From IMG/VR virus record IMGVR_UViG_3300030388_001259, positions 1 to 44,806 of that record: a DNA stretch of 44,806 bases. One strand, written 5' to 3'. This DNA is from a virus. The position numbers and the translations under genes are program-made. Of the stretch, positions 9,980-35,912 are shown piece after piece. Below the pieces are notes generated by a model. That model saw only the letters and a program-made list of their open reading frames with translations, did no database searches and was not told the DNA's origin. Numbering within the stretch: the stretch's first letter is position 1; each line of letters starts with the position of its first letter.

Positions 9980-10033
9980 GATTGCTTATTGTTTCTGCAG
10001 CAACTAAAACCACCAAAAAATAGAGAGATTAAA

Positions 10034-11257
10034 ATGGTTACTGCATCCATATTTCTAGCGATTATTTGCCCCGCCGTTCTTTGCACTACCCTGTCCCGAA
10101 TAGGCCTAACGCCCACCACACCGAGTGGGGCAAGGCTCGGGTCAATAGATGGCCTACGCGGATACCTTGCACTTCTCGTAGTCATACATCACTTCGCAGT
10201 CTGGCAAGTCTATGCGCAATCTGGAATTTGGGACTTGCCTGCAAATACATTCCTAGCGAACGCAGGAAGCGGTGGCGTTGCTTTGTTTTTCATGGTTTCC
10301 GGCGCACTTTTTTATGCGATACTTGACAATCGCAGCGGGCATTTTCCATTTATTCCCATCTATACGTCACGAATATTTAGAATTACACCGCTACTATGGA
10401 CTGCCGTGTCTGCCCTTTTTGCAATCGGTTTTTATCGCGGGGGTAGCTTAGCTGGTATCGACATAGCCAGCGGTCTGCGTTGGATGTTCCTTTTAGGGAT
10501 GCCGCAAATGATGGACAGCACAATTTCAAGAGAGGATATGGCTAGTGTCCTCTGGACATTGAGGTGGGAATGGATTTTCTATCTCAGCTTGCCCGCTATC
10601 GCTTTCTTTCAGCGGTCCCAACCCTGTCGCGGAAACCGGTTAGCGTTTATATTTGCCTTATGCGCTGTTGTAATGTTGGCGAGGGGCGCAGGATTTGGAC
10701 CAAGGCCCCCCTCCTTCTTTATACTTGGCGTTTTGGCTATCGAAATAGCTAAGTGCGATAAATGGGCTAAATTATTGCGCTACAAGTCGGTTGCGATTGC
10801 GACAATTCCATTTGGCGTAATAGCATTTTGCTCAATTCCATCAATATACTCACCTCTTGGTGGAATACTGCTGTTCGTCATCTTTCTACCTATTGTAGCG
10901 GGGAATGACTGGTTTGGGCTTTTATCCGCAAATTTTAGCCGCACACTTGGCGAAGCCAGTTATGGCATATATTTGCTGCACGGAATAGTTTTGTCTGTAA
11001 CCTTTCATGATATCGGCTTGCGGACTTTGCCTGAGCCTAACAGATGGATATATTTACCAATCATCACAACTGCCACGGCGGTAATATCTCTTGCGACATT
11101 CGTCGCCATAGAAAGGCCAGCGATCAGACTTGGAAAAAACGTTTCTTACCGCTTGTCTCAAGTCCTTTCAAAGGCCCCCGCTTATCCTAACTGCCAGCGC
11201 ACTTTAAACGATGGGTTGGAAAGTGTTACATCAGTCCCGCCCCGGCATATCCCATAG
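10034..11257 (+). CDS. Membrane O-acyltransferase, likely lysogenic-conversion gene
   Basis: 407 aa from the ATG at 10034 (AGAGAG upstream). It is an Acyl_transf_3/OafA-type integral membrane protein: the signature GSIDGLRGYLALLVVIHHF at residues 37-55 contains the conserved histidine, and about ten further hydrophobic segments follow. Family members move acetyl or other acyl groups onto surface polysaccharides. It runs against all neighbouring late genes, is visibly AT-richer, and its last 76 nt overlap the 3' end of the tailspike gene. A possible promoter is TTGCTT-N17-TAAAAC just upstream. These are marks of a moron expressed from the prophage to alter the host O-antigen and block related phages. 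Confidence 0.88.
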   Translation: MVTASIFLAIICPAVLCTTLSRIGLTPTTPSGARLGSIDGLRGYLALLVVIHHFAVWQVYAQSGIWDLPANTFLANAGSGGVALFFMVSGALFYAILDNRSGHFPFIPIYTSRIFRITPLLWTAVSALFAIGFYRGGSLAGIDIASGLRWMFLLGMPQMMDSTISREDMASVLWTLRWEWIFYLSLPAIAFFQRSQPCRGNRLAFIFALCAVVMLARGAGFGPRPPSFFILGVLAIEIAKCDKWAKLLRYKSVAIATIPFGVIAFCSIPSIYSPLGGILLFVIFLPIVAGNDWFGLLSANFSRTLGEASYGIYLLHGIVLSVTFHDIGLRTLPEPNRWIYLPIITTATAVISLATFVAIERPAIRLGKNVSYRLSQVLSKAPAYPNCQRTLNDGLESVTSVPPRHIP

Positions 11258-31831: not shown

Positions 31832-32464
31832 TCATGCAAGCCCAACCTTCACCACCCCATCGCGCGATACCTGACCAGTGATCGGCATCCCGTTCTCGGC
31901 CAGCATGTTCCACCATACCAGCCCCGCCTTGTGCCCCGTGACCTGCACCCGAAAACCTGCCATCGGACCCCCGACAATCTCCACCTCGTCACCAGCATTC
32001 AGCCGCATCATCTCGTCCCGTGCAGCCTTCACGCGATCGGCCCTTGCCACCATCTTGCCCGCGCGCTCCGTCAGTCCGCGCAGGATGCGGATGGTATCTC
32101 TGCCCAGCACGACGGGGCGCTCGCCGATGCACATCACGCCGGTGATGATCCGGCGTTCCTGCAGCACGTCCCACCGCGGGCGATGCTGAAACTTGGCGTA
32201 GATGATTTGCGAGACATGCGGCACTTGGTAGGTGATCCTCTGCCCTCTGTGGACGCGCTCACGGTCATCCATCGGGCAGAAGGCTGTCACCTTGTCGCGG
32301 GCCAGACTTGCGATTGCAGCGCGCTCTTTGCCGGGTGCCACGCGAAGCGGATGCCAGACCGACGCCGGCACTCCGCCGCGCATGATCCGCTCGTTCGTCA
32401 GAACGCCACGCACCGCACCCAGGGGCACGGCATCACCGATCTGCAATTCTGTGTATTTCGTCAT
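31832..32464 (-). CDS. NusG/RfaH-like transcription factor
   Basis: 210 aa from the ATG at 32464 (GCAGG upstream; the ATG at 32476 adds four residues). Residues about 36-125 read as an NGN domain: SVWHPLRVAPGKERAAIASL at the start, FCPMDDRERVHRG, SQIIYAKFQ and IITGVMCIGERPVVL. A helical linker (about 126-154) leads to a KOW-type C-terminal domain, LNAGDEVEIVGGPMAGFRVQ (155-174). NusG paralogues bind RNA polymerase and suppress pausing or termination on selected operons. The gene lies between replication genes and the terminase/structural operon, so a late-gene antiterminator role is the leading inference. Confidence 0.8.
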   Translation of the reverse strand: MTKYTELQIGDAVPLGAVRGVLTNERIMRGGVPASVWHPLRVAPGKERAAIASLARDKVTAFCPMDDRERVHRGQRITYQVPHVSQIIYAKFQHRPRWDVLQERRIITGVMCIGERPVVLGRDTIRILRGLTERAGKMVARADRVKAARDEMMRLNAGDEVEIVGGPMAGFRVQVTGHKAGLVWWNMLAENGMPITGQVSRDGVVKVGLA

Positions 32465-32505
32465 GTGACCTGCCATTCATGGCGGGCCGGGTCTTGGCGT
32501 GGATG

Positions 32506-32534
32506 ACACTAGGTGCGGCGTGGCAGTCGGTCAA
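32506..32534 (-). promoter_or_regulatory. Candidate leftward promoter before the NusG-like gene
   Basis: Minus strand TTGACC (32534-32529), 17-bp spacer, TAGTGT (32511-32506), about 30-40 nt before the start codon. It may drive nusG-like, terminase and late genes. It is close to the first repeat units of the adjacent iteron-like region, so binding there could regulate it. Confidence 0.5.
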
Positions 32535-32540
32535 TAAGGT

Positions 32541-32806
32541 CACAGTTGCACAGTTCGTATGCGAGTTTCCCTTTTAGGGTAAAAGTCAGGATTCAGTCTA
32601 GAAAGACAAGCATAGACGAATTGTCGAACTGTGAAACAAAAACAAAAAAATACCTATATAAATAAGGTGTATAATACCATTCGACAGTTCGTAATGGCAC
32701 CCCCACAGTTCGTCGCATTGTGGCGCGAATTGTGCGAAAAAAAACCACAGTTCGCTACGAACTGTGGTTTGAAATTACGAACTGTGGGATCTGGTTTACG
32801 AACTGT
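32541..32806. repeat. Iteron-like repeat cluster with AT-rich segment; candidate replication origin
   Basis: ACAGTTCG occurs forward at 32550, 32684, 32705 and 32747, and in reverse (CGAACTGT) at 32625, 32758, 32778 and 32799. Degenerate CGAATTGT copies lie at 32617 and 32726. Within each orientation the copies at 32684-32799 are spaced 20-21 bp, two helical turns. The pair at 32742-32754/32758-32770 forms a perfect 13-bp inverted repeat with a 3-bp centre. An A/T-only-rich stretch lies at about 32633-32680. The region is otherwise non-coding, next to the primase-helicase gene. Confidence 0.8.
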
Positions 32807-35270
32807 CAGATGCACCGAACAGCACCTTTTGCGGTGTTCCCCCGCCGTGTTCGCGGGCAATCATCCGCATGACAATCGTGCCCTCCTTTTCCAGCGTCTC
32901 GGTGATCTCCTTCATGTCGCGCGCCTTGATTGACCGGAATCTCTTGAGCATCTCAGACCACCGCCTCCCACCATCGCCCCCAGCCACGACGAACCGCTCC
33001 ACCGCGTTCATGTCTTTCTCGTGCTGGTTGTCGGCTATATGGCTGGCGATGTTCGAGATCATCACGCCGGCGCTCCACCGGGCTAGAGCGTGCCCTACTG
33101 CGAAGTCCTGATCATCTATCACCGGATCGTCTGCGTTGCGCCCCACGGCAGATATCAGAGCGATCTTGATCGCATTTTCCGCAACCCTTCGCAGGATCGC
33201 AGGCCCGCCCTTGATGCCCTCGCGCTCGGCGTGTTCCGCGCATCCTGACATGGTAGAGATCAGCCGTTGGCGGGCGCTTTCCGCTTCGTCCGTGATGCCG
33301 GCAGTGCATGTTTCCGGCAGACCCATGTTGCCCCTTACCTTGCGCCCTATGGCCGCTGTGATGTCTTCAAGCCTCTCGACGATAAACGACTGCCCCCTGT
33401 CGTCAGGCTCTTTTGGTGCCGCCTTGCCGATCGGGAACACGAGATACCGCGCGATTGATCCATCTTCGAGCGACGACGACCCGAACGCAGACCAGAACTG
33501 GTCAGGGGTTGCCATGCCGAACAGGCACAGATGCGGGCAGTCAATCTGTTGACTGTCCTGCGTGGCATAGGCCGTGCCCGTGAACAGCGTATTGGCGGCG
33601 CTGTAGAGCTGGGTGAACTCCGTGATGATCTGTTTCGCGTGTGCCCCTGCCCCTGCCCCTCCGACCTGTTGCAGCATGTGCCCGAACTCGTCCAGAAAGC
33701 AGATGCGCGCCGTGCCAGTGGACAGCATCTTGAGCAGCCCGGACCCAGACGCGATCCGGTCCTGTCCGATCAGTCCGTCAACCTTCGATAGCCGCATGAC
33801 TTCCTTGGCAGGACTGACAAGGCTCGTCTTGCCGGTGCCTGATCCACCGATTGCGGTGCAGTAGATGTTCGTCCGTAGCCGGGTCGGCGTCTGGTATGCC
33901 TTGCCCATGATCGCGCCCAGCATCGGCAGCGCCACCGCAAGGCCGCCCGCTTCTGTTGCCGTGGCGCTGGCCTGATCGAGATACCCGGCAAGCTCGCCCA
34001 GAAGTCCGGGGCAATTGAACGCATAGTCTCGGATCGGGAACGGCCCAGGGTCGGACGGGATCAGCGCTTCGTATTCATCCTTGGTCGGCACCACGGCAGG
34101 CTTGATCTTGTCAAACGATCTGGCCCCGGTGAACACCGGCGTCGCCAGCCAGTTGTCGCGAATGTGGACGGGTTTAGGTTCCGGTGGTGCCACATCATCG
34201 GCAGGCGCATCTTGCGAACGCCCAGCGTTCAGCGTGTCCAGATCCACCCCGCCCGCTTCTGCCCTGATAAACTGCCCCAGCCACTCCGCCGCGGCATCAA
34301 AGCTGCAATCGCGGGCTGCCATGACCACATCGGCAGGCGTGTATGATCGATCCGCGCCAAAATCCACGATCCCGCCAGGTGTCGCTTTCAGGTTCGGGTT
34401 GCGCTCCTGCACTGACCGACCGGACCCCGATCCCCGCCAATACGGCACGGCTTCCCAAGCCCCCGGACCTCGCTGGCGTGACTTCGGCATGTCCAGCGCC
34501 GGCCACCACTGATCCAGTGCCTGCGGCTCCATGGCCCGATCGTTCAGGGACCGACCGAACGGCTTCTCCAGGTCGTGATCTGACGCCGCCGACCGGTCAT
34601 ATTCCGCGTTGTGAACCTTTCGCGGTGTCTGCCGTTGTAGCCCGATCTTGGTGAACTCGCGATCCAGCGCCGCAAGGTCGGTACCGCCGATCTCCGGCAA
34701 CTCCGAAATGTCGCAGTTTTCCAGCGTGTCCGGCGTTAGCCATGAATAGGGTGCCAGCGTGTCGGGATGGATCGACGGCGGCAAAACGGACTGCGTGCCG
34801 TGCAAAAGCAGCTCCACGACCGGGCTGTAATGCTTCGTCCCATCCTGCCCCGTGGTGAATACTTTGGGGTCATACCACCGCACACGCGCTGTCAGCCCGT
34901 CCAGGCCACCGCCGGGGCGATAGTAGCCCATCCAGCCCTTCTGACCCCTGCGCCGGACGTGGGATAGCGCCACGGCTCGCCCCAGAGCCTCGGCCACGTC
35001 CTTGCGGTCGGTATCGAGGTCCAGACCGATCACGTTGCCATGTGCCACGCAGACCCCGGCTTCCGGCCAGTTCTCCCACTGCCCGTGGATGAACTCCGGC
35101 GGCATCATGTCGCAATACTTGGCCCATCCTGACAGGTTGCCCCATCCGCCGCGGTAGTCTCCCGGCACCTTGTAGCCCGGACGCACCGGCATGGCATGAA
35201 ACCCGTTATCGCGCAGGTTCGCCGCGACCCGGTGATATGGTGATGCTTGCGTTAGCATGTTGCCATCCAT
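32796..35270 (-). CDS. Primase-polymerase / helicase replication protein
   Basis: 824 aa from the ATG at 35270 (35258 and 35291 are alternatives). The N-terminal archaeo-eukaryotic primase-type Prim-Pol domain (about 10-190) shows the metal-binding pair in GLDLDTD (83-89), QKGWMGYYRPGG, and PPSIHPDTLAPYSW. A linker carries a second small domain (about 290-335). The C-terminal superfamily 3/DUF3987-type ATPase has Walker A GGSGTGKTS (475-483) and Walker B FLDEFGHM (525-532). It should unwind and prime phage DNA. No replicative polymerase gene is present, so host Pol III is probably recruited. It lies directly beside the iteron-like region. Confidence 0.87.
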   Translation of the reverse strand: MDGNMLTQASPYHRVAANLRDNGFHAMPVRPGYKVPGDYRGGWGNLSGWAKYCDMMPPEFIHGQWENWPEAGVCVAHGNVIGLDLDTDRKDVAEALGRAVALSHVRRRGQKGWMGYYRPGGGLDGLTARVRWYDPKVFTTGQDGTKHYSPVVELLLHGTQSVLPPSIHPDTLAPYSWLTPDTLENCDISELPEIGGTDLAALDREFTKIGLQRQTPRKVHNAEYDRSAASDHDLEKPFGRSLNDRAMEPQALDQWWPALDMPKSRQRGPGAWEAVPYWRGSGSGRSVQERNPNLKATPGGIVDFGADRSYTPADVVMAARDCSFDAAAEWLGQFIRAEAGGVDLDTLNAGRSQDAPADDVAPPEPKPVHIRDNWLATPVFTGARSFDKIKPAVVPTKDEYEALIPSDPGPFPIRDYAFNCPGLLGELAGYLDQASATATEAGGLAVALPMLGAIMGKAYQTPTRLRTNIYCTAIGGSGTGKTSLVSPAKEVMRLSKVDGLIGQDRIASGSGLLKMLSTGTARICFLDEFGHMLQQVGGAGAGAHAKQIITEFTQLYSAANTLFTGTAYATQDSQQIDCPHLCLFGMATPDQFWSAFGSSSLEDGSIARYLVFPIGKAAPKEPDDRGQSFIVERLEDITAAIGRKVRGNMGLPETCTAGITDEAESARQRLISTMSGCAEHAEREGIKGGPAILRRVAENAIKIALISAVGRNADDPVIDDQDFAVGHALARWSAGVMISNIASHIADNQHEKDMNAVERFVVAGGDGGRRWSEMLKRFRSIKARDMKEITETLEKEGTIVMRMIAREHGGGTPQKVLFGASDSS

Positions 35271-35271
35271 C

Positions 35272-35592
35272 CTAAAATGGGATTTCATCATTTGCCCGGC
35301 GGCGCAGCTCGTCGCAGGTGCCCTGAAAAATTCTTCCGCAGAACTCCCCCCACTGATCCGGCGATAGCTGGCGCAGATCGAACACGCCGATGCTGTCCAG
35401 ATATTCCCCGCCGGCGTTTCCGCCGATCGCGGCAGCCGTCTTTTCGTCCGGCTTGACTGGTGTCTTGGTCATGTAAATCCTCGCGCAGTCCATGCCGCAG
35501 AATTGCGCGACAGGCTGTCCCGGTATGTGAATTGAAATGCTATCAGACGCCCTGTTGCATACGGTGCAGGGCCACCCCGGCATCATAGTCAT
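35272..35592 (-). CDS. Zinc-ribbon protein upstream of primase
   Basis: 106 aa from the ATG at 35592, fixed by the ATGA overlap with the preceding stop. Four cysteines in CTVCNRASD and FCGMDCARIY form a probable zinc ribbon. The C-terminal half (SIGVFDLRQLSPDQWGEFCG, then RRRANDEIPF) is helical and acidic. The DEIPF-like ending resembles acidic C-terminal tips that recruit proteins, but this is speculative. The gene is the immediate partner of the primase-helicase. Confidence 0.68.
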   Translation of the reverse strand: MTMMPGWPCTVCNRASDSISIHIPGQPVAQFCGMDCARIYMTKTPVKPDEKTAAAIGGNAGGEYLDSIGVFDLRQLSPDQWGEFCGRIFQGTCDELRRRANDEIPF

Positions 35593-35912
35593 TGCCCGGA
35601 CCGCCGCGCTTTGCACTGACGGCAAAGGCATGCTGGAAAGTGCATATGACTGCTGCAAACGCCGGACACGTTGCGGCGATGCAATTCCTCGCCGCATCCC
35701 TCATGTCCGCAGACCTTGCGGCCTGACCGCTTGCCGTGGATGAATTGCCCGGCATCATTGCGTTTTGCGTGGATGCTAGCGCCCGGACCCTTGCACAGCT
35801 TGTGGCCCTGCTCCCACGGTGCCGCGGGCAGCGTCACGTCCGTGTAATGATTGCTCGCGCGGTCGCTGTATCCCGGCCGATGATCCGGCACCTTGACTGT
35901 CTTGACCAGCAT
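35589..35912 (-). CDS. Cys/His-rich zinc-binding protein
   Basis: 107 aa from the ATG at 35912, overlapping the helicase stop by one base. Polar N-terminus (MLVKTVKVPDHRPGYSDRAS), then a dense metal-binding region: CGHEGCGEELHRRNVSGVCS and CLCRQCKARR. At least two zinc sites seem possible. The arrangement recalls small recombination endonuclease or HNH-like modules but lacks a clear HNH triad. It probably binds nucleic acid within the replication complex. Confidence 0.65.
   Translation of the reverse strand: MLVKTVKVPDHRPGYSDRASNHYTDVTLPAAPWEQGHKLCKGPGASIHAKRNDAGQFIHGKRSGRKVCGHEGCGEELHRRNVSGVCSSHMHFPACLCRQCKARRSGQ

Follow-up and report, generated by a model that had tools for sequence, protein, structure and literature searches.

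The window spans the whole of a 44,806-base virus record, which derives from a temperate phage as judged by its integrase and CI-like repressor genes. Along the minus strand, replication genes are followed by a primase-helicase gene, an array of short repeats, a NusG-like gene, terS, terL and the structural genes. The primase-helicase (32796..35291, minus strand; 831 aa; PHROG DNA primase) carries PF09250, a PrimPol domain, at residues 27-200 and PF13148, DUF3987, at residues 573-740. The NusG-like gene (31832..32476, minus strand; 214 aa) matched PF02357 (E 1.2e-5) and PHROG 6386, transcription antiterminator; it is the downstream neighbour of the array and not its proposed reader. Directly 5’ of the primase gene lies a gene for a small DUF6511 protein of 141 aa (35272-35697, minus strand), homologues of which, with a CPxC motif, hold the same position in relatives. 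Elsewhere in the record, a plus-strand O-acetyltransferase gene (9989-11257; PHROG 3333) possibly alters the host surface. Scans with Rfam and for tRNAs were both without matches.

The octamer ACAGTTCG occurs nine times in the 44,806 bases, counting both strands, where 1.2 occurrences are expected and none of 100 shuffles reached nine. Eight of these copies fall within 32550-32806, with one further copy in the rest of the 44.8 kb, and at eight copies per 270 bases they form the densest 8-mer cluster of the record; the best unrelated word reached four. Numbered from the primase outward, exact copies lie on the minus strand at 32799..32806 (iteron 1), 32778..32785 (iteron 2), 32758..32765 (iteron 3) and 32625..32632 (iteron 8), and on the plus strand at 32747..32754 (iteron 4), 32705..32712 (iteron 6), 32684..32691 (iteron 7) and 32550..32557 (iteron 10). 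Two minus-strand variants, ACAATTCG, at 32726..32733 (iteron 5) and 32617..32624 (iteron 9), bring the total to ten units. Iteron 1 sits within the last codons of the primase gene, and iteron 10, which is kept in the related locus L001, is just 5’ of the presumed promoter of the NusG-like gene. Units starting at 32684, 32705, 32726 and 32747 follow each other at exact 21-base steps, and those at 32758, 32778 and 32799 at steps of 20 and 21 bases. Between iterons 6 and 7 on the plus strand and iterons 8 and 9 on the minus strand is a site-free stretch of 50 bases (32633..32683) that is 78% AT in a record of 58.9% GC, and a promoter-like TATTAT lies inside this AT-rich part of the array.

These counts bear out much of the original prediction, made from the letters of this DNA, which had described eight exact units with two variants, phasing at 20-21 bp, a perfect 13-bp inverted repeat and an AT-rich stretch. 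The predicted span was partly right: the repeats are real, but exact units begin at 32550 rather than 32541, and the word at 32542-32549 (ACAGTTGC) matches the octamer at six of eight positions without being an exact unit. The division into forward units on one side and reverse units on the other did not hold, as the strands are mixed with no clean split.

The arms of the inverted repeat (32742-32754 and 32758-32770) contain iterons 4 and 3, and a terminator scan and RNA folding identified here a hairpin of 13 pairs with a loop of 3 (-18.4 kcal/mol, z -5.95), followed by a T run (32734..32770, minus strand). With its T run, the repeat is a strong predicted terminator, and it probably doubles as that of the primase operon, which two iterons are predicted to form. 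L001 has a comparable iteron hairpin with a T run, and in some distant relatives GC-rich hairpins of the ordinary kind occupy this place. A possible promoter for the NusG-like gene, TTGACC-17-TAGTGT (32506..32534, minus strand), was read by eye and missed by a consensus promoter scan; its TTGACC is kept in L001. Just past this presumed promoter is a leader word, GCCAAACCCCG, which the window has as GCCAAGACCCGG at about 32487-32500. The word recurs 5’ of the NusG-like gene in L006, L009 and L012 and could act as a leader element or in antitermination.

The last ~80 residues of the primase-helicase are predicted to form a winged helix. An AlphaFold model of the 82-residue tail (residues 750-831; 32799..33044, minus strand), which is our proposed reader of the array and is swapped together with it in relatives, has a pLDDT of 86 and the order helix-strand-helix-helix-strand-wing-strand. 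A profile search of the tail against PDB chains found no relevant solved relative by sequence, and Foldseek returned generic winged helices only, with E above 0.03. For the helicase half, the nearest PDB fold was that of the MCM AAA+ proteins, at low TM-scores.

In three contigs whose primase is 86% identical, the octamer is present nine times in the corresponding gap (nine sites in L001), a gap that is only 59% identical despite the shared word. Below 86% primase identity, arrays occur at the same place with unrelated words, and an array is found 3’ of the primase in relatives down to ~25% primase identity. Scoring exact and one-mismatch words in 34 loci, each against 12 dinucleotide shuffles, we found 18 that beat every shuffle, five that were marginal in the one-mismatch test (L027, L028, L046, L088 and L091) and 11 with no array adjoining the primase (L010, L014, L025, L081-L083, L086, L087, L090, L093 and L094); because twelve shuffles per locus are few, the result serves as a screen and carries no p-value. 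An EM motif finder of our own, which strayed towards palindromes and words of low complexity, was dropped. The expectation of conservation in relatives with a homologous primase is borne out for position in about half of those tested; the word, kept at 86% primase identity, changes by lineage.

The words were AATAATCGGA in L006 and L008, CCGAAAAC in L009, CAAGTGTCCA in L011, AGCAAATAGT in L012 and GAAAATCGGA in L015, with TTGAARGAAG/ATT and TTGACGGAAG in Rhodobacterales prophages. Arrays were also present in cultured phages: RHph_TM3_3_14B and AP-16-3 (GCAATTCCAAA), Baskent_P4_1 and Bhz54 (GGGGGATA), Halfdan, whose host is E. coli MG1655 (GTATAAGG), and Birtae (GTTCTAAT). The Halfdan array lies 3’ of the primase at ~30.3-30.6 kb of its record. 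Neighbouring same-strand sites in the relatives’ arrays are mostly spaced by 8-9 bases, and in many arrays an AT-rich gap is flanked by two or three sites of one strand on one side and two or three of the other strand on the other. Array gaps were AT-rich relative to coding sequence in all 19 loci measured. Under a strict test, iteron groups opposed across the AT-richest gap were present in just 8 loci out of 19 (p 0.001), and we dropped this layout as a universal rule while retaining it as a tendency. In L006 (8405-8933) and L008 (6861-7160) small ORFs separate the primase stop codon from the array; the two in L006 had no Pfam match.

Tail and word changed together among 30 Rhodobacterales loci (28 scorable, two without a call). 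A GGR-type wing accompanied TTGAxRGAAG in 18 loci and an SST-type wing TTGAxRGAT[TC] in the other 10, with no exceptions among the 28; counted by site, the ratios were 91:7 versus 0:45, with the wing and helix classes chosen after inspection of the data. On a tree built from the protein body, the wing types are polyphyletic and require four to five changes, at least two to three of them forced by well-supported branches. The type of recognition helix tracked the fifth base of the word (A 141, T 1 versus C 7), the second helix type being represented by three loci only. Three SST-type loci (L036, L037 and L041) have a C-terminus ~15-18 residues longer and sparse arrays, and are perhaps decaying origins.

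Two natural mosaics exchange just the tail and the array. Aligned, the L008 and L009 primases are near-identical except for their final ~70 residues, in which L008 resembles L006, and the L008 array word also resembles that of L006. Their DNA runs at ~95% identity up to a divergent block, comprising the codons for these residues and the array, and returns to ~95% across the NusG region; the NusG-like proteins are equally long and share both ends, and identity is ~95% in their gene and in the DNA upstream of it while the array differs. Neither the NusG-like gene nor the core of the primase is a good reader candidate, because both are almost unchanged while the word changes. A zinc-ribbon partner, suggested in the original prediction as a possible binder, fares no better here, since this neighbour matches in length and at both ends between L008 and L009, yet the word differs. 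In a second pair, L036 and L050, which are two primase copies within one genome (G334), identity of 90-96% is interrupted by a block of wing codons and array only and then continues at 93-100%; as regards the word, the second pair is the weaker evidence because the L036 array is sparse (one exact word). The left breakpoint of the swapped block lies inside the gene, in the winged-helix coding region. The sequences show the 3’ end of the gene to be an exchangeable specificity cassette, in which the word and the winged helix evolve as a unit.

We consider it likely that the phage starts replication at the array, as an origin whose iterons the neighbouring primase-helicase would bind through its C-terminal domain. 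The co-variation suggests that the protein, encoded just upstream, would bind words of 8-10 bp via its C-terminal winged helix. Once assembled on the iterons, it would load its DUF3987 helicase ring, which is AAA+ and MCM-like, onto the 50 AT-rich bp separating the opposed iteron groups, and the loaded ring would open this stretch, as the layout and the SaPI and P4 precedents suggest; the N-terminal PrimPol domain, recognized from its Pfam match, would then prime synthesis. An origin served by the primase-helicase had been anticipated, and array position in about half of relatives, the AT-rich centre and covariation with the tail support it well. Cumulative GC skew does not: a turning point at the array had been suggested as a check, none was seen there, and skew lends no support. 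Also counting against the proposal are the 11 of 34 loci with no array beside the primase and the opposed layout being found by the strict test in 8 of 19 loci only.

The main weakness of the origin proposal is the physical adjacency of word and tail, as one recombination could move both without a functional tie. Array and tail might then be hitch-hikers of one mosaic block, of a kind common in phages, with the array read by an unlinked protein. We regard this as improbable. Chance co-travel is disfavoured because the matching is repeated and exceptionless, with wing and word agreeing in all 28 scorable loci although the body tree implies several switches, and because the left breakpoint falls within the gene, in the winged-helix coding region. 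In L015 and L084, moreover, the array is ~870 and ~390 bases from the primase, yet the C-terminal winged helices are still present.

About equally unlikely is that the array is primarily an operator, through which a regulator, either the primase or another phage protein, controls the NusG-like promoter and hence the late genes. The array does have the primase terminator on one side and the NusG-like gene on the other, with one site kept just 5’ of the presumed promoter and a TATTAT in its AT-rich part. However, arrays also occur where VRR-NUC, RusA or small genes follow, with no NusG-like gene; the NusG gene and its upstream region are unchanged between L008 and L009 while the word differs; and at least 10 sites with an AT-rich centre exceed the usual operator. 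Gating of late transcription, which the original prediction had offered as an alternative role, is thus weakened as the primary function, while a secondary effect of the array on the NusG promoter may exist.

It is very unlikely that the word is a priming template for the PrimPol domain and not a duplex site of the C-terminal domain. The model for such a role is the NrS-1 PrimPol, which requires an 8-nt recognition sequence (TTTGGTTA) for primer synthesis and recognizes it, in two copies, as a single-stranded priming template (PMC7102993, PMC8718748), and an NrS-1-type HBD domain is present in some array-bearing relatives. NrS-1 has just those two copies, though, and no array (PMC7102993), and priming of this type is disfavoured here because the PrimPol domains of L008 and L009 are near-identical while their words change; L036 and L050 likewise differ essentially in wing and array only. 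A packaging (pac) or partition site is the most improbable reading of all: terS and terL lie within 1.1-3 kb after the NusG-like gene, but terS of RHph_TM3_3_14B is ~3.6 kb away from the primase, the 2-2.5 kb of annotated flank examined in Baskent_P4_1, Halfdan and Birtae hold no terminase gene, and the word follows the primase tail.

DUF3987 proteins have been predicted to be helicases (PMC5862659), and the open-access literature we searched describes no origin for them. Our proposal supplies an origin, a reader domain and a word-to-protein code for this family, which has hits in ~300 deposited phage records, including phages of E. coli K-12. If correct, it would make origins predictable from sequence in many uncultured phages. 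It is also possible, at somewhat less than even chance, that phages and prophages with PrimPol-DUF3987 initiators carry cassettes of winged helix and iterons, swapped by recombination, which stop co-resident or superinfecting relatives from firing each other’s origins, with the recognition helix reading the inner base of the word and the wing its outer bases. The bacterial genome G334 carries two closely similar primase-helicases with different wings and array words (L036 and L050), possibly an orthogonal pair, as they would be under the cassette hypothesis. The origin proposal also suggests a phage counterpart to plasmid incompatibility groups.

Several known replication systems share parts of this arrangement. 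As in plasmid iteron origins, multiple short repeats and an AT-rich region lie beside an initiator gene, but Rep_3 and RepA initiators lack a helicase of their own, whereas the adjacent protein here is a primase-helicase. NrS-1 likewise has a phage PrimPol-helicase, though with two copies of its word against ten here, where the word follows the C-terminal domain. The pRN1 protein ORF904 combines PrimPol, helicase and winged helix, with an origin in the ~166 bp downstream of its gene; that origin is a 100-nt stem-loop whose model does not include iterons, and a stem-loop has been proposed for phage BIP-1 as well (PMC4234260). Our candidate origin is similarly downstream of a PrimPol-helicase gene, but with iterons in place of a stem-loop. 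The P4 alpha protein, as PMC4234260 describes it, unites primase, helicase and winged-helix binding of origin repeats, as predicted for the present protein; alpha has a Toprim-type primase, in contrast to the PrimPol (AEP) PF09250 domain here, and the tail profile, with no relevant PDB chain, gave no homology to the alpha origin-binding domain. SaPI Rep and SCCmec Cch2 are described in PMC7581432 as self-loading helicases whose C-terminal domain reads iterons directly downstream of their own gene and as specific for the cognate origin (there citing Ubeda 2007). Like SaPI Rep, the protein studied here is a helicase-containing initiator with a predicted winged-helix C-terminus and iterons directly 3’ of its gene, but its helicase is of the PF13148 DUF3987 type with an MCM-like fold, unlike the DUF927 or D5/Primase_Cterm helicases of Rep and Cch2, and we found no description for those proteins of the exchange of wing and word seen here in natural mosaics. 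By analogy, then, the array and primase-helicase would work as a module in the manner of SaPI Rep and P4 alpha, while belonging to neither by helicase or primase family.
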